Assembly (NCBI GenBank): GCA_014380515.1
Contig: JACMJS010000048.1
Coordinates: forward strand, 1-35,169
DNA from: Chlorobiales bacterium
Lineage (GTDB): Bacteria; Bacteroidota; Chlorobiia; Chlorobiales; JACMJS01
Length of the DNA stretch: 35,169 nucleotides
Direction of reading: 5' to 3'
In this document: positions 10,827 to 29,240 of the stretch, piece after piece
How positions within the stretch are numbered: position 1 is the stretch's first letter
Layout: every line of letters begins with the position of its first letter
Translations under genes and position numbers: made by a program
Notes under the pieces: generated by a model
Seen by the model: the letters and a program-made list of their open reading frames with translations, nothing else
Databases searched by the model: none
Told to the model about the DNA's origin: nothing

Positions 10827-13631
10827 CTACGCAAGGGCTTCAAGGCTTGCTGAAATTTTCTGCAAGTTGAGTTTGGCCGTCTCCAATTTCATCCGCTCGC
10901 CATCCAACACGTCTTTCGGCGCACGCAGCGCGAAGCCTTCGTTGGAAAGTTTTTGCTCTACTTGCTTCACATAGTTTTCCGCTTTCTGCTGCTCTTTGGC
11001 TAAACGGATTTTTTCTTTTTCAAGGTCGATTAAGCCTTCGAGCAAAATGAAAATTTCCGAGCCTTCTACCACGCTGCTTGCAGCGAGCTTTGGTTTTACC
11101 GCGCCCGTTTTCACGTCGAATGTCGCCCGCGAAATTTTTCCCATCAATATCTTACTCGCTTCAACCTGCTTTACAACCACATCGCTTGCAGCATTGATGA
11201 CGACGGTTGCAATCGGTGCGGGCGGCACGCCCAATTCGTTGCGCGTGCTTCGAACTTTAGTGATCACTTCGCGCACGAAATCAAATTCTTTTTCCGCCGC
11301 ATCATTGATGTAAGTTTCATCCGCTTGCGGCATCCGGGAAACACTGATGCTTTCACCTTCCTTGCGCGGCACGATGCTTTGCCAAAGTTCTTCGGTGATG
11401 AACGGCATGATCGGATGCAGCATCTGTAACGACGCTTCAAAAACTTTCAACGCACGAATGATCGTGATTTGCTTTTCCCCCGGCGGCGTCGCACTTTGGA
11501 TTTTCGTTTTGATAATTTCCACGTACCAATCGCAAAAGTCGCCCCAAATAAATTCATAGAGTATCTTGGCCAGATCATTCGCCCGGAACTGTTCGTGCGC
11601 GGCGTGATACAGTTTCAGCGTGCGGTTCAGCCGCGAGAGCATCCACCGGTCTGCCGGTTCGAGAAATCGGTTTGTATCCGTTGCAGTATAAGCCGTAGCG
11701 AAGTCCGTGAGTTCAGGAAAAATTTCGTTGCGGTTCATCAAGAGGAAGCGCGCGGCATTCCAAATTTTCGTGGCGAAGTTGCGGCCTTGTTCGCACTTCT
11801 CCGTCGCAAATAAAACATCTTGGCCGAGCGGTGCAAGGTAGATCACCGTGAATCGCAAAGCGTCCGTACCGTACGTCGCCATCACCTCCAGCGGGTCGGG
11901 CGAGTTACCCAGCGACTTCGACATCTTGCGGCCTTGACTATCGCGGATGATGCTCGTGAAATACACGTCGCGGAACGGCACATCGCCGTTGAAATGAAGT
12001 CCCGCCATGATCATTCGTGCGACCCAAAAGAAAATAATATCGGGTCCGGTTACCAGCGTTGATGTCGGATAAAATGCTTTGATGTCGTTTTCGCTCACAG
12101 TGAGATTGCCTTCGCTGTTCATCGAATGATAATCTTCACCGTTCCAACCGAGCGTCGTCATCGGCCAGAGCCACGACGAAAACCAAGTATCGAACACATC
12201 GTCGTCTTGACGCAAGGCCGTCGTGCCCGCAAGTTTGGCGGCGTCGTCAAAATTTTTGGCGACGAAAATTTTTCCCGCGTCGTCATACCACGCCGGAATC
12301 CGATGTCCCCACCACAATTGCCGCGAGATGCACCAGTCGTGAATATTTTCCAGCCAGTTTCGATACGTGTTCAGCCAGCGTTCGGGATGAAATTTGACGT
12401 CGCCCCGCAGAGCCGCGTCCAGAGCGGGCGCTGCGAGTGCCTTCATATCGACGAACCATTGCTCGGAAAGGAACGGCTCGACCACCACATCCGCGCGTTC
12501 GGAGTAGCCGACGCTGTGCGCATAATCTTCAACCTTTTCGAGATTGCCCGATGCTTCCAAATCAATTGCTATTTTTTTCCGCGCATCGAACCGATCCAGA
12601 CCTGAATACGGCGCGAAGCCTTCCGCCACTTTCGCCCACTGATCAATCGCCACAATGATGGGCAAGTTGTGCCGCTGCCCGACTTGATAGTCGTTTGCAT
12701 CGTGCGCCGGTGTAATCTTCAACGCGCCCGTACCAAACTCAATCTCTACATAGTCATCTGCAATGACGGGAATTTTCCGCCCCGTCAACGGTTCAAGCAC
12801 AACCTTTCCAACCGATTCTTTATAGCGTTCATCATTCGGATTAACGGCGATGGCGACATCGCCTAAAATGGTTTCGGGACGCACGGTGGCAACGGTGATG
12901 AACGGCTTGGGTTCGTCAGGCTCACGGTTTTCATTATCGGCGAAAAAATATTTGACGAAGTAAAGCTTGTCCGTCTGCGGCTTCATGATCACTTCTTCAT
13001 CGGAGAGCGCGGTTTGCGAGACGGGACACCAGTTGATGATGCGCTTGCCGCGGTAGATGAGGCCGTCGTTGTAGAGCCGCACGAATACGGCGGTTACGGC
13101 TTGCGATGCGCGATCGTCCATCGTAAAGAGATTTCGCCGCCAGTCGCACGAGACGCCGAGTTTCCGAAGTTGACGGACAATCAATCCGCCGTAATCCTCG
13201 CGCCACTCGCGGACGCGCTCCAAGAATTTCTCGCGTCCGAGATCGTACCGCGTCAATTTTTCCTTGCGCAAACTTTTCTCGACGGCGGTTTGCGTGGCGA
13301 TGCCCGCATGATCCGTACCCGGCAACCACAAGGCTTCGTAGCCCGTCATGCGGCGGTAGCGGATGAAAATATCCTGAAGCGTGTGGTTGAGCACGTGTCC
13401 CATCGTAAGGCTGCCGGTAATGTTGGGCGGCGGCATCAATACGGTGAATGGTTTTTTACCCGCCTGTAAAACCCCGTCAGCATTGGCTTCATAGAGATGA
13501 AACTTCGCCCAGTAGTCCGTGCTCCACTTGGCTTCGACCGTTGCGGCGTCGTACGTCTTTTCTAAATCGGACGCGTTCGGCGAGTTCACGTTTTTGTCGT
13601 CGGCTTTTTCAAATGCAGGTGTATCAGGCAT
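10827..13631 (-). CDS. valS: Valine--tRNA ligase
   Basis: 934 aa class-I synthetase that charges tRNA-Val. Visible parts: the HIGH-type motif PPPNITGSLTMGH (~67-79), an editing domain with TVRPETILGDVAIAV and the binding pocket stretch FGTGALKITPAHDANDY, the KMSKS motif in GRKMSKSLGNS (~565-575), an anticodon-binding helical domain, and a C-terminal coiled coil (~865-930) typical of ValRS. It is full length and apparently intact. The first ~25 residues are a short acidic extension. The gene starts 51 bases downstream of the winged-helix regulator gene on the same strand and may share its transcript. Confidence 0.98.
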   Translation of the reverse strand: MPDTPAFEKADDKNVNSPNASDLEKTYDAATVEAKWSTDYWAKFHLYEANADGVLQAGKKPFTVLMPPPNITGSLTMGHVLNHTLQDIFIRYRRMTGYEALWLPGTDHAGIATQTAVEKSLRKEKLTRYDLGREKFLERVREWREDYGGLIVRQLRKLGVSCDWRRNLFTMDDRASQAVTAVFVRLYNDGLIYRGKRIINWCPVSQTALSDEEVIMKPQTDKLYFVKYFFADNENREPDEPKPFITVATVRPETILGDVAIAVNPNDERYKESVGKVVLEPLTGRKIPVIADDYVEIEFGTGALKITPAHDANDYQVGQRHNLPIIVAIDQWAKVAEGFAPYSGLDRFDARKKIAIDLEASGNLEKVEDYAHSVGYSERADVVVEPFLSEQWFVDMKALAAPALDAALRGDVKFHPERWLNTYRNWLENIHDWCISRQLWWGHRIPAWYDDAGKIFVAKNFDDAAKLAGTTALRQDDDVFDTWFSSWLWPMTTLGWNGEDYHSMNSEGNLTVSENDIKAFYPTSTLVTGPDIIFFWVARMIMAGLHFNGDVPFRDVYFTSIIRDSQGRKMSKSLGNSPDPLEVMATYGTDALRFTVIYLAPLGQDVLFATEKCEQGRNFATKIWNAARFLLMNRNEIFPELTDFATAYTATDTNRFLEPADRWMLSRLNRTLKLYHAAHEQFRANDLAKILYEFIWGDFCDWYVEIIKTKIQSATPPGEKQITIIRALKVFEASLQMLHPIMPFITEELWQSIVPRKEGESISVSRMPQADETYINDAAEKEFDFVREVITKVRSTRNELGVPPAPIATVVINAASDVVVKQVEASKILMGKISRATFDVKTGAVKPKLAASSVVEGSEIFILLEGLIDLEKEKIRLAKEQQKAENYVKQVEQKLSNEGFALRAPKDVLDGERMKLETAKLNLQKISASLEALA

Positions 13632-13682
13632 GATTTGGCTATAAAAATTCGATGTGAAAGTGCGGCAGGTGGGACTGGAAAG

Positions 13683-14318
13683 TTACTTAGATGATTTTTT
13701 TTCGATAGGATAAAACGCAAGCGTCAGGCCGTAGATCGTTTCGCCGTCATCGTGGCTGGCGGCGCGACATTCGTTAATCCATGCCTGAAGGTGTGATTGA
13801 AGTTTTTCGATTTCCGGTTGCGACGCCCGCACTTGCAAGCGGGTAAAAAATCCGTAGGCATCCGTTTGCGTGATGAGTTTGCGGGCGAGACTTTCCTTCA
13901 CTTCCATCATCGTTGCTTGCAGGGCTGAGGACAACATCACCTCCGAAGCACCTCCCGCTGCGGAAGTTGTCACATCTTCTCCATTCCCCATGCCTGATGA
14001 ACCTGCGTCCCCATTGGCAGGAACACCATCTAAACGCACTTCGAAGAGTTGTGGCGACAGCGTAAAGTGCTCAGCGACGGCATGATAATACTTTTCCAAT
14101 GTGCCGCGGTTTTGTTTTGTCTCAACGAGCTTGATGAGTCCCGCAGCGGCCAGCAACTCGACGTGGTGATAGAGTTTATTGGCGTTCTCATCCAAGAAAA
14201 GTGCTACCTGTTTGGTCGTCATGCTTTTGTGGCAGAGTGCCTCCAAGATGCGCATCCGCAGAGGATCGGCGATGGCGCGAACCTGCGTGATGTCGCGCAG
14301 CATATAAACACTCGTCAT
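13683..14318 (-). CDS. ArsR-like winged-helix transcriptional regulator
   Basis: 211 aa. Residues ~10-80 form a winged helix: VRAIADPLRMRILEALCHK, then a recognition region (TTKQVALFLDENANKLYHHV), then a wing (GLIKLVETKQNRGTLEKYYH). This is the HTH_20/ArsR-like type found in one- and two-domain regulators. No ArsR metal-binding Cys-x-Cys is seen. The C-terminal half has a Gly/Ala/Ser-rich loop and helical stretches and is probably a dimer or sensing domain without a name. It sits 121 bases downstream of the PII-like gene and directly before valS, so it may regulate the bicarbonate operon, but this is inferred from position alone. Confidence 0.85.
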   Translation of the reverse strand: MTSVYMLRDITQVRAIADPLRMRILEALCHKSMTTKQVALFLDENANKLYHHVELLAAAGLIKLVETKQNRGTLEKYYHAVAEHFTLSPQLFEVRLDGVPANGDAGSSGMGNGEDVTTSAAGGASEVMLSSALQATMMEVKESLARKLITQTDAYGFFTRLQVRASQPEIEKLQSHLQAWINECRAASHDDGETIYGLTLAFYPIEKKSSK

Positions 14319-14439
14319 ACTTGCGGTTTAGGAAGCAATTGGCTTGCGGTTATCCGTATCAACTTTTCTAAAATACACAAGTTCAAACGATAAACGATTT
14401 TGCGCGTCGATTACACCGATGCGCTGCCGGTTCGCAGTG

Positions 14440-14745
14440 TCAGCCCGCATACTTTTCGCCGCGCAGCACTTCGGCGGTGATGACGAAGGCCGCGGCACCG
14501 AAGTGCGGAAAGTATTCCGCCGCCAAGTGCGCCATAATTTTATCGGCTACCTCCGCACTGACCAGCGTTTCGATGCGGCTGTTTTCTCCTTCCCATGCAC
14601 TTTCACGTTCGGCGTACAGACCTTTGCCGCGCACCGTGCCGACGGTATAGCCCGTCGCGCCGAGGTTCAAAAGTTCAGATAAAAGTTTCGATTCTAATTC
14701 GTCCTCGATGATAATCGTAACGAGCTTCAGCAAAACGGTTTTCAT
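14440..14745 (-). CDS. sbtB: PII-like signalling protein of the SbtB type
   Basis: 101 aa with the PII ferredoxin-like pattern: LLKLVTIIIEDELESKLLSEL, the GATGYTVGTVRGKG strand-and-turn that is diagnostic of SbtB-type proteins, a T-loop region (YAERESAWEGENSRIE), and FVITAEVLRGEK near the end. In cyanobacteria SbtB binds adenine nucleotides including cAMP and closes the bicarbonate transporter SbtA. Here the gene starts 13 bases after the sbtA stop, so the pair is almost certainly co-transcribed. The protein ends at EKYAG and has no cysteines, so the C-terminal CGPEGC segment of some cyanobacterial SbtB proteins, proposed as a redox-controlled nucleotide hydrolase loop, is absent. Confidence 0.88.
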   Translation of the reverse strand: MKTVLLKLVTIIIEDELESKLLSELLNLGATGYTVGTVRGKGLYAERESAWEGENSRIETLVSAEVADKIMAHLAAEYFPHFGAAAFVITAEVLRGEKYAG

Positions 14746-14758
14746 ATTTCGTCTCTTT

Positions 14759-15739
14759 TTAAATGGCGTAGATGGCTTGCGCTATCGCGTGATAGAGCGG
14801 CAAGCCGATGAGAATGTTGAACGGAAACGTGATGGCGAGCGACGCGGTGAGATAGTAAGTCGGCGAGGCCGTTGGCAATGCGACACGCACGGCGGCGGGC
14901 GCGGCGATATAGGAAGCACTCGCGGCAAGCACGCCGAGAATCGTTGCGCCACCCATCGAAAGCCCCGCCGCCTTGCCGAGCACAATGCCGATGCACGCAT
15001 GGAGCACCGGCATCACGATGCCGAAACCAAACAGAAATGGTCCCGCTTTGGAAAGATCACCGAGCCGCCGTCCGGTTACAAGCCCTGCTTCTAAAAGAAA
15101 CAGCGTAAGCACACCGCGAAACGGCACGTCGAAGAGCGGCGACACCTGATCCCACCCGCGTTTGCCTGCAAGCAATCCGATCACCAAACAACCGACGAGC
15201 AGCAGTGTGCTTTTTCCGGCCAAGAGTTCACGCATCACCTCTTTCGTTGATGCGCCGCCTGCCTGCGAAGCCTTGTCCTGCGTGCTTGTGCGGGCGATGA
15301 AGATCGCAATGAGAATCGCGGGCACTTCCAAAATTGTCAGCAGGCTCGGCATGTAGCCTTCGTAGGTGAGTTTTAAATTATCGTGAAAAGCTAAGGCTTC
15401 GCTGAACGTTACCGCCGAGACCGAGCCGTAGTGCGCCGCAAGTGCAGCGGCATTGGCGACATCGAACTTGCCCAGATACCGCAAAATAAAATACGACCAC
15501 ACCGGAATCGAAACGCCGATAAGCACCGCCGCCATGCCCGGCTTCCAGAACTCAGCGAAGGTCGACAGCGAAAGTTTATAGCCACCTTTTAATCCGATAG
15601 CCACGAGCAAATAAATCGTAAGCGCGGTATAAAGTTCTTCGGGAAACTTCAAATCGCTTTTGACGAGCGTGGCGATGATACCGAGCACGAACGCCAGCAC
15701 CATCGGCGAGAGCAAACTGATAAGTAACGGATGTTCCAT
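14759..15739 (-). CDS. sbtA: Sodium-dependent bicarbonate permease, SbtA family
   Basis: 326 aa with about ten hydrophobic helices. It matches the SbtA family (DUF897) through stretches such as SPMVLAFVLGIIATLVKSDL, IYLLVAIGLKGG, AAHYGSVSAVTF and SASYIAAPAAVRVALP, the last two being conserved substrate/sodium-site regions. SbtA imports HCO3- with Na+ across the inner membrane. The cytosolic loop between the two halves (ARTSTQDKASQAGGASTKE) is short. Upstream lies an exported carbonic anhydrase (65-base gap) and downstream the PII-like partner (13-base gap), so bicarbonate uptake is a well supported role. Confidence 0.93.
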   Translation of the reverse strand: MEHPLLISLLSPMVLAFVLGIIATLVKSDLKFPEELYTALTIYLLVAIGLKGGYKLSLSTFAEFWKPGMAAVLIGVSIPVWSYFILRYLGKFDVANAAALAAHYGSVSAVTFSEALAFHDNLKLTYEGYMPSLLTILEVPAILIAIFIARTSTQDKASQAGGASTKEVMRELLAGKSTLLLVGCLVIGLLAGKRGWDQVSPLFDVPFRGVLTLFLLEAGLVTGRRLGDLSKAGPFLFGFGIVMPVLHACIGIVLGKAAGLSMGGATILGVLAASASYIAAPAAVRVALPTASPTYYLTASLAITFPFNILIGLPLYHAIAQAIYAI

Positions 15740-15804
15740 GTTGGTTATGTTTTTTAAATGTTGATGTTGCTAATAAAACTTTTCGCGCTGTGCCAAGCGG
15801 GATT

Positions 15805-16518
15805 TTATTTTTTCACAGGTACTTTCACCGCGTCGCTCTTGGCAAGTGTTTCAGGTATGAGATTGACTTCACCGGTTTCGAGATCATACACACCGCCGAC
15901 GATTTGCAGCGATCCTTCGCGGACGCGCTTCGCCAGAACAGGCTCAAGCGAGCGAAGTTGCTCCACCTGCATCCGCACGTTTTCCTTGACCGCGTTTTCA
16001 ACCGCGTCGCCCGCCATACCCTTCACTTTTTCCGCCGCCGGTTTGATCGCATTGATGAGCGTAACAACGTGGCCGGGGACATCGGGCGTTTCGACGGCGG
16101 CCTTGACTGCGCCGCACTTCGTATGCCCCAGCACAAAAATTAATTTTGCTCCTAAGACTTCTTCGGCGAACTCAATACTGCCCCACGAGGCGTAGCTAGA
16201 AACTTGTCCCGCCGTGCGGACAATGAACAAATCTCCCAAGCCCTGATCGAAAATAATTTCATTCGGCACGCGCGAATCCGAACAGCCGACGATTACCGCG
16301 AACGGCTTTTGTCCCTTGGCGACTTCCCGCAGCCGCGCGGCGTCTTGATGCGGATGCACCGACTTTCCGGCGACGAATCGCTTGTTGCCTTCCATCAGCC
16401 GCGTAAGGGCTTCATCCGCAATCGCCGCCGCAGGTACGGCTGGCTGCGCCGCAAGGGAAAACGGCATCCATGCGCATACCGCCCATATCGCAACCGCGAC
16501 TTTTCTTTTGAGTTCCAT
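15805..16518 (-). CDS. Exported beta-class carbonic anhydrase
   Basis: 237 aa from ATG 16518. A frame extension to 16617 would put 33 atypical residues before an otherwise good signal peptide. Residues 1-~25 are that signal peptide, ending SLAAQ, so the enzyme should be periplasmic. The zinc ligands C79, H132 and C135 lie in VGCSDSRVP and GHTKCGAV, and the D81/R83 dyad is present, so it looks active: CO2 plus water to bicarbonate and proton. It lies first in a minus-strand run with sbtA and the PII-like gene, implying that it supplies bicarbonate to the permease from CO2 in the periplasm. A terminator at 16689-16713 separates it from clpP upstream. Confidence 0.95.
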   Translation of the reverse strand: MELKRKVAVAIWAVCAWMPFSLAAQPAVPAAAIADEALTRLMEGNKRFVAGKSVHPHQDAARLREVAKGQKPFAVIVGCSDSRVPNEIIFDQGLGDLFIVRTAGQVSSYASWGSIEFAEEVLGAKLIFVLGHTKCGAVKAAVETPDVPGHVVTLINAIKPAAEKVKGMAGDAVENAVKENVRMQVEQLRSLEPVLAKRVREGSLQIVGGVYDLETGEVNLIPETLAKSDAVKVPVKK

Positions 16519-16684
16519 TTTGATTGTAAGTGTGAGTTTGAAACCGGTTTCCCAACGCAAATCGTAACAATGCAATTTTATTAAAATTATTTTTAATAAT
16601 AAAAAAATAAGTTTCAATGAGAGTTAAGTCCTTAAAAAAACGCAATTTATTTTATTTCAATAACGGAATTTTTTGATAACCTCA
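16519..16684. promoter_or_regulatory. A/T-rich leader upstream of the carbonic anhydrase operon
   Basis: 166 bases between the clpP terminator and the carbonic anhydrase start, much richer in A/T than the surrounding genes (runs such as TTTTTTTATTATTAAAAAT on the minus strand). It must contain the operon promoter. No pair of -35/-10 boxes stands out enough to name. Confidence 0.45.
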
Positions 16685-16713
16685 TAAAAAAGCCGCCTTT
16701 GTGAGGCGGCTTT
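16685..16713 (-). terminator. Intrinsic terminator after clpP
   Basis: Ten-base stem AAAGCCGCCT (16689-16698) / AGGCGGCTTT (16704-16713) with a 5-nt loop, followed on the minus strand by a T run (16685-16690). It lies 22 bases past the clpP stop. Confidence 0.9.
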
Positions 16714-16734
16714 GAATGCTTGTGTCCGTTACAA

Positions 16735-17460
16735 TTATTTCTTTTCCATCATCGGACGGCGCTCGAAGATTTCATCGATCATGCCGTAGGCTTTCGCTTC
16801 ATCCGCCGACATCCAGTTGTTCCGCTCCGAATCCAGATTGACTTTTTCGACCGGCTGTCCGGTGTTCTTCGCAATGATCTCATCGAACTGCTGGCGGATG
16901 CGCATAATCTCTCGCGCCTCGATTTGAATATCCGATGACTGGCCTTGCGCGCCGCCCGACGGCTGGTGAATCATAATCCGCGAGTGCGGCAGCGACGCCC
17001 GCTTGCCCTTCGTGCCGGAGCAAAGCAGGAACGCCGCCATGCTCGCCGCAAGACCGACGCAAACCGTCGAGACGTCGGGGCGGATGTATTGCATCGTGTC
17101 ATAAACGCCGAGGCCGGAATACACCATGCCGCCGGGCGAATTGATGTAAAGATAAATATCGCGCTCCGGGTCTTCGGATTCCAAAAAGATCAGTTGCGCC
17201 ATGATCAGTCCCGATGAATGATCATCGACTTGCGTGCCCAAGAATACGATGCGTTCGCGGAGCAGGCGCGAGAAGATATCGAACGCCCGTTCGCCGCGGC
17301 CTGAGGTTTCAACGACCATCGGGACGAGCATATTCGTCGGCTGCGAAATCGTGAAATCGGCGGGCTGCGGGGGAAGGTTTAAATGGTTGATGCCCTGCAC
17401 AAGGCGAGGCGAAAATAGTTTTTCGGCGTGATGGTCGAAACCGAAATTGATGTTTGCCAT
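16735..17460 (-). CDS. clpP: ATP-dependent Clp protease proteolytic subunit
   Basis: 241 aa from ATG 17460; an upstream in-frame start at 17538 adds unrelated residues. The catalytic triad is S140 ([11 protein letters not shown]), H165 ([10 protein letters not shown]) and D210 (NLDSERNNW). The glycine-rich strand YINSPGG and the TERDRF-like segment are present. ClpP forms a double heptamer that degrades proteins fed by ClpX/ClpA/ClpC. The core corresponds to residues ~44-241, so the first ~43 residues are longer than the E. coli propeptide. A start at Met44 (17331) would give a typical 198-aa protein. No clpX is adjacent. Confidence 0.95.
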
Positions 17461-28742: not shown

Positions 28743-29240
28743 TTATGGCTTGTCAGTGCTTCGGAAAACTTTCGCGGGCACACCAGCTACAATCGTTTGC
28801 GGCGGCACGTCTTTCGTTACGACAGCGCCCGCGCCGACGATTGCACCTTCGCCGATGGTGATGCCCGGTAAAATCGTTGCGCCGCTGCCGATGCTCGCGC
28901 GGGTTTTAATTACCGTCGGCTCAACGCTCCAGTCGGATTCGGTCTGCGGCGAGCCGTCCGCATTGGTTGCGCGGGGATAGCGGTCGTTGATGAACATGAC
29001 GCCATGCCCGATGAACACGTCGTCTTCGATTCGCACGCCCTCACAAATAAACGTGTGGCTGGAGATTTTGCAGTTCTTGCCGATCACCGCATTTTTTTGA
29101 ATTTCGACGAACGCGCCGACCTTGGTGCCATCGCCGATCTCGCAGCCGTAAGCATTGACAAACGAAAAAATCTTCGTGCCTTCCCCGAGCTTCACATCGT
29201 TCAGCCGGATGAAATTTTCCTTCAGATACGCTTTGTCCAT
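28743..29240 (-). CDS. Hexapeptide-repeat N-acetyltransferase, WlbB/WbpD-like
   Basis: 165 aa of left-handed beta-helix with hexapeptide turns throughout ([57 protein letters not shown]). The end, [23 protein letters not shown], is the standard acyltransferase tail. [12 protein letters not shown] matches the WlbB/WbpD group that acetylates the 3-amino group of UDP-2-acetamido-3-amino-glucuronate using acetyl-CoA. The neighbouring dehydrogenase of WlbA/WbpB type supports this pathway. The aminotransferase (WlbC/WbpE) that should act between them is not in the window. Its stop is 5 bases from the convergent lipase stop. Confidence 0.85.

Follow-up and report, generated by a model that had tools for sequence, protein, structure and literature searches.

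A carbonic anhydrase–SbtA–SbtB gene cluster as a putative bicarbonate-supply module in a deep member of the Chlorobiales

SbtA and its PII-like partner SbtB have been studied almost solely within RuBisCO-based CO2-concentrating mechanisms. What, then, would such a pair do beside an exported carbonic anhydrase (CA) in a chlorophototroph in which no autotrophic pathway was found? This question is raised by a gene cluster in a Chlorobiales bacterium (GenBank assembly GCA_014380515.1), located on a 35,169-nucleotide stretch of contig JACMJS010000048.1 that was analysed as a whole and is referred to here as the window.

The cluster occupies positions 13683–16518 of the window and comprises four minus-strand genes, in the order CA, sbtA, sbtB and a winged-helix (HTH) gene, with intergenic gaps of 65, 13 and 121 bases. 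A previous model-based interpretation of the DNA (the sequence-only reading) had given these identities, positions, strand and gaps, and the open reading frame coordinates and Pfam matches agree with it throughout. It had also proposed that a clpP terminator sets the cluster apart upstream, and the hairpin is real: 10 pairs followed by a T run, 3′ of clpP (16670–16745, minus strand; folding z = −3.1). The adjoining AT-rich stretch (16519–16669, minus strand) is the putative site of the cluster promoter, and contains a single weak sigma-70-like match that scores at chance level. No terminator was seen within the cluster, the sbtB–HTH gap included, or in the gap between the HTH gene and valS (13631–13683), the latter starting 51 bases downstream of the winged-helix gene. 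Given the lack of a terminator between the HTH gene and valS, the cluster transcript may continue into valS.

The CA gene (15805–16518, minus strand) encodes a beta-CA of 237 amino acids with a match to Pro_CA (PF00484, 9e-41), and its nearest PDB entries are 2a5v and 1ym3 (E 2e-38). Its score against the PRK15219 subfamily, 157.5 bits, is under the 221-bit cut-off. The zinc ligands and the Asp-Arg dyad are intact (CSDSR...HTKC; C, D, R, H and C), and the N-terminus, MELKRKVAVAIWAVCAWMPFSLAAQ, has a hydrophobic segment followed by an AXA-type site, assigned by eye to the Sec type. The proposal that this is an exported CA with an intact zinc site therefore holds, as far as sequence features can indicate, and the signal also occurs on orthologues. 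Every intact CA adjoining sbtA, in at least five phyla, carries a predicted export signal, be it of the Sec, lipobox or Tat kind. Sec-type signals are found in Chlorobiales, Acidobacteriota, Cytophagales and Leptospiraceae; elsewhere, the CA is a predicted lipoprotein in most Verrucomicrobiota (the lipobox of the CA at locus L071 was assigned by eye) and a predicted Tat substrate in Gemmatimonadota. That export is retained, whichever route is used, is the strongest indication that the CA would act outside the cell membrane alongside SbtA. Elsewhere in the window, a gamma-CA reading of a hexapeptide protein (28743–29240) was set aside; the neighbours of this gene are sugar-transfer genes.

The second gene (14759–15739, minus strand) encodes a transporter of 326 amino acids that belongs to a non-cyanobacterial subfamily of SbtA. 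The Sbt_1 match (PF05982, 2e-116) spans profile positions 1–308 of 308, and PDB entry 7cye is matched with E 1.3e-32. In an AlphaFold model (pLDDT 87.4) the protein is predicted to have the 5+5 helix fold of SbtA, and the top five PDB matches to the model are all SbtA (TM 0.76–0.88). The sequence-only reading had HCO3− imported by this protein; family and fold agree with an SbtA-type transporter, but the substrate is less secure than it was made to appear, with two of the four docked ligands changed. In Synechocystis SbtA, the HCO3− ligands S114, Y140, S324 and S327 form a docked site that is backed by alanine mutants (PMC8352866). In the window protein S114 and S324 are kept, Y140 is replaced by L134 and S327 by A279, and D325 corresponds to Y277. 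An alignment places the same ligand-site changes in nearly all of the 93 sampled non-cyanobacterial SbtA rows, the exceptions at position 140 being one phenylalanine and three valines. The docking site thus differs from the cyanobacterial one, and bicarbonate is a presumed substrate. We hypothesize that the loss of Y140 and the gain of a tyrosine at position 325 could represent a compensated rearrangement of the site. In the SbtA tree, the window sequence clusters with those of two relatives, G007 and G004 (support 99/93), and a supported set of 23 rows also takes in Acidobacteriota, including Chloracidobacterium, and a Cytophagales group. Transfer of sbtA among phototrophs that share mats is possible.

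The small protein encoded by sbtB (14440–14745, minus strand; 101 amino acids) belongs to the PII family (P-II, PF00543, 9e-19), has SbtB among its closest relatives and is encoded next to sbtA. Its nearest PDB entry is Thermus TTHA0516 (2cz4, E 8e-25), with SbtB structures next. This closest solved relative, which is annotated only as hypothetical, shares the short T-loop and a WEGxN motif with the window protein. In the alignment, the T-loop is about six residues shorter than in cyanobacterial SbtB, and the C-terminal CGPxGC is absent. The identity and adjacency of SbtB stand as first described; its control of SbtA had been put more strongly than this difference from the cyanobacterial pair allows, and with so short a T-loop we treat it as conjectural.

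The last gene of the cluster (13683–14318, minus strand) encodes an ArsR-like winged-helix protein of 211 amino acids with a match to HTH_20 (5e-10; 39.6 bits against a 27-bit cut-off) and to the PDB structure of PH1932 (1uly, E 4e-12). Its C-terminal part is conserved within Chlorobiales in the alignment. An orthologue occurs in nine of the ten genomes of families f1 and f2, and is linked to sbtA in six of the nine. In the remaining three, which belong to genus g5 (G013, G019 and G004; loci L144, L145 and L146), it lies apart from sbtA, and it was not seen beside sbtA among the loci examined outside Chlorobiales. The proposed regulator thus has the expected domain and takes part in a four-gene order found in relatives, but its membership of the cluster is not constant and is confined to Chlorobiales. 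The neighbours of the unlinked copies were scanned for a shared regulon and include no obvious inorganic-carbon gene; at L144 and L145 the orthologue adjoins small membrane-protein genes. A paralogue of the window gene (L147:7044–7637, in G009) lies tail to tail with the gene for the FMO antenna protein.

The host genome (3.57 Mb, 420 contigs, 97% complete) is a deep member of Chlorobiales and the only member of family f1 in our sample of 41 genomes of the order, which also includes families f2 (n = 9) and f3/f4 (n = 31). All 41 genomes encode FMO, so the host is a chlorophototroph; together with named loci from Candidatus Thermochlorobacter and Chloroherpetonaceae, this identifies the order as Chlorobiales. 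The host also encodes a haem-copper oxidase, and its PEP carboxylase matches with 1037 bits; its gene content suggests aerobic photoheterotrophy such as has been reported for Thermochlorobacter (PMC9560492, PMC9342728). Profile searches of the host genome gave no match to RuBisCO_large (PF00016), and none to the citrate-binding domain of ATP-citrate lyase (PF16114), which is matched in 34 of the 41 genomes of the order. These two enzymes were the scope of the autotrophy search. Of the roles first suggested for the cluster, autotrophy loses ground with neither enzyme found, and anaplerotic carboxylation gains a PEP carboxylase in the same genome. PEP carboxylase scores across the order suggest two enzyme lineages, with full-profile matches of about 1040–1080 bits in f1/f2 (1037 in the host; that of G017 is a fragment) and about 710–760 bits in f3/f4. 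A second beta-CA of the host carries no signal and lies directly downstream of a SulP transporter gene truncated at the contig start (contig C59; L137:2–1742). The pairing of SulP with a signal-less beta-CA recurs in all nine f2 genomes, and no beta-CA was found in the 29 f4 genomes.

Within the order, SbtA is present in the host and in eight of the nine f2 genomes (nine of ten for f1/f2), the sole f2 genome in which it is missing being 81% complete, and in none of the 31 f3/f4 genomes. ATP-citrate lyase is matched in all 31 of the latter and in three of the f2 carriers of SbtA (G001, G009 and G015); the distribution of the cluster therefore goes with lineage and does not strictly mirror loss of the reductive TCA cycle. 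The host shares the order CA-sbtA-sbtB-HTH with three relatives (G001, G007 and G009). G015 has the order HTH-sbtA-sbtB, a contig end of G011 shows sbtA-sbtB-HTH-sbtA (L132), and G001 has a second sbtA downstream of the HTH gene (L127:6666–9659); the second sbtA copies of G001 and G011 form a separate clade in the SbtA tree. The clpP and valS flanks differ between relatives, which identifies the gene block as the conserved unit.

The neighbourhood is kept well beyond Chlorobiales, as CA-sbtA-sbtB across phyla; the refuting case named in the sequence-only reading, a lack of adjacency in relatives, was thus checked and did not hold. Among the 21 closest named loci, from Chlorobiota, Acidobacteriota, Cytophagales, Chitinophagaceae and Leptospiraceae, CA lies immediately upstream of sbtA in 14 and SbtB is encoded downstream in 17. 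Of 56 further loci, most of them from Verrucomicrobiota and Gemmatimonadota, 47 have an adjacent sbtB and 18 a CA gene within 1.2 kb. We also looked for BchZ in 50 SbtA carrier genomes and found it in 14, from four phyla, with no match in the other 36. Since these carriers had been picked by SbtA similarity, co-occurrence was retested across one phylum, Gemmatimonadota (394 genomes), after an E-value cut had dropped two very weak SbtA matches (G195 and G308). BchZ was present in 18 of 33 genomes with SbtA versus 25 of 361 without it (Fisher p = 4e-11, kinship and habitat ignored), and removal of five genomes that came from the SbtA scan left 13 of 28 versus 25 of 361 (p = 1e-7, again ignoring kinship and habitat). 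With kinship and habitat ignored, the result is an association and not a cause. At one locus of this phylum (L148; contig C26 of G241), sbtA is close to photosynthesis genes, with some 12 kb between it and bchZ.

We hypothesize, with moderate confidence, that the cluster is a bicarbonate-supply module serving anaplerotic carboxylation in a chlorophototroph in which no autotrophic pathway was found, and not a CO2-concentrating mechanism. Within the periplasm, the exported CA would convert CO2, some of it leaked from the cell, to HCO3− and back, and SbtA would bring in HCO3− together with Na+. SbtB may bind SbtA and gate it by adenylate or energy state, and the winged-helix protein may control expression of the cluster. 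The imported HCO3− would feed PEP carboxylase and other carboxylases during combined use of light and organic carbon, with the main benefit in settings poor in CO2, such as alkaline mats or blooms. Which way the CA step runs is the most uncertain part of this mechanism: at alkaline pH, where HCO3− is already abundant, capture of leaking CO2 may outweigh hydration of external CO2. With a second, cytosolic CA in the same genome, HCO3− would equilibrate with CO2 inside and an accumulated pool would escape as CO2, which argues for supply or recapture and against a classic, RuBisCO-type CO2-concentrating mechanism.

The same recapture of CO2 could instead serve pH and ion homeostasis, the CA trapping respiratory CO2 as HCO3− and SbtA returning it, with buffering as the net effect. 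We regard this as rather unlikely. The haem-copper oxidase of the host is in keeping with it, and the preponderance of SbtA carriers with no BchZ match indicates that a role tied purely to light would not apply across carriers; however, Na+-coupled import would be costly for buffering alone, PEP carboxylase offers a direct use of the carbon, and SbtB-type regulation in the cases studied points to carbon or energy sensing. A less probable option is that members of the window SbtA subfamily transport a different small anion, their link to CA being indirect. This would accommodate the altered docking residues, as well as the negative result for a non-cyanobacterial SbtA-like protein of Labrenzia, possibly of another subfamily, which gave no uptake when expressed in E. 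coli (PMC4275256). It sits poorly with the repeated pairing of sbtA with an exported CA across several phyla whose export routes differ, with best fold matches that are all SbtA, and with the possibility that the two changed sites are compensated. Also speaking against it are two Sbt transporters of Thiomicrospira pelophila, possibly of another subfamily, which rescue E. coli lacking CA when CO2 is low (PMC12628692).

We consider it very improbable that the cluster belongs to an autotrophic metabolism or supplies an undetected fixation cycle as a true CO2-concentrating mechanism. Such a role is suggested by the place of SbtA in cyanobacterial CO2-concentrating mechanisms and by the ATP-citrate lyase of three f2 relatives, but the host itself matches neither enzyme profile, its cytosolic CA would drain the HCO3− pool, and SbtA is absent from the 31 f3/f4 genomes, all of which have ATP-citrate lyase.

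The proposed supply module was also compared with known systems. It resembles the cyanobacterial SbtA-SbtB pair (slr1512-slr1513 in Synechocystis) in its adjacent transporter and PII-like genes of the same Pfam families, and its SbtA shares the fold (TM 0.86–0.88), S114, S324 and the crossover motifs; it differs in the replacement of Y140 and S327, the shorter T-loop and missing CGPxGC of SbtB, the exported CA in the cluster and the lack of a RuBisCO match in the host. The Thiomicrospira pelophila transporters are likewise non-cyanobacterial, but their host is a carboxysome-bearing autotroph. MpsAB of Staphylococcus aureus provides a precedent for bicarbonate supply to anaplerosis in a non-autotroph (PMC6689103, PMC8567241), although the transporter is unrelated and rarely coexists with CA, whereas the Chlorobiales host has both an exported and a cytosolic CA. 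SulP-CA pairs similarly combine a transporter with a beta-CA, but the CA is cytosolic and the transporter belongs to another family.

Reports on other organisms fit a bicarbonate-supply role. Chloracidobacterium thermophilum lacks autotrophic genes and lives as a photoheterotroph, yet fails to grow unless bicarbonate is supplied (PMC4376005), peptides of Ca. Thermochlorobacter take up label from 13C-bicarbonate (PMC12542760), and Roseobacter denitrificans derives 10–15% of its protein carbon from CO2 via anaplerosis (PMC2749216). A search for literature on SbtA together with Chloracidobacterium found nothing, and the publications consulted on photoheterotrophic Chlorobiales and Chloracidobacterium mention neither SbtA nor CA, although they report a requirement for or uptake of bicarbonate. 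We suggest, more tentatively, that exported CA, remodelled SbtA and short-T-loop SbtB form a distinct, phylum-spanning HCO3−-scavenging module that could support light-driven mixotrophy in the absence of a detected autotrophic pathway, and that might explain the bicarbonate need and 13C-bicarbonate uptake of photoheterotrophs in hot-spring mats. The linkage of the genes and the predicted export of CA hold across phyla, often in light-using bacteria. The altered binding-site residues of SbtA pose a clear biochemical question about its substrate, and a named gene set makes the unexplained bicarbonate need of photoheterotrophs testable.
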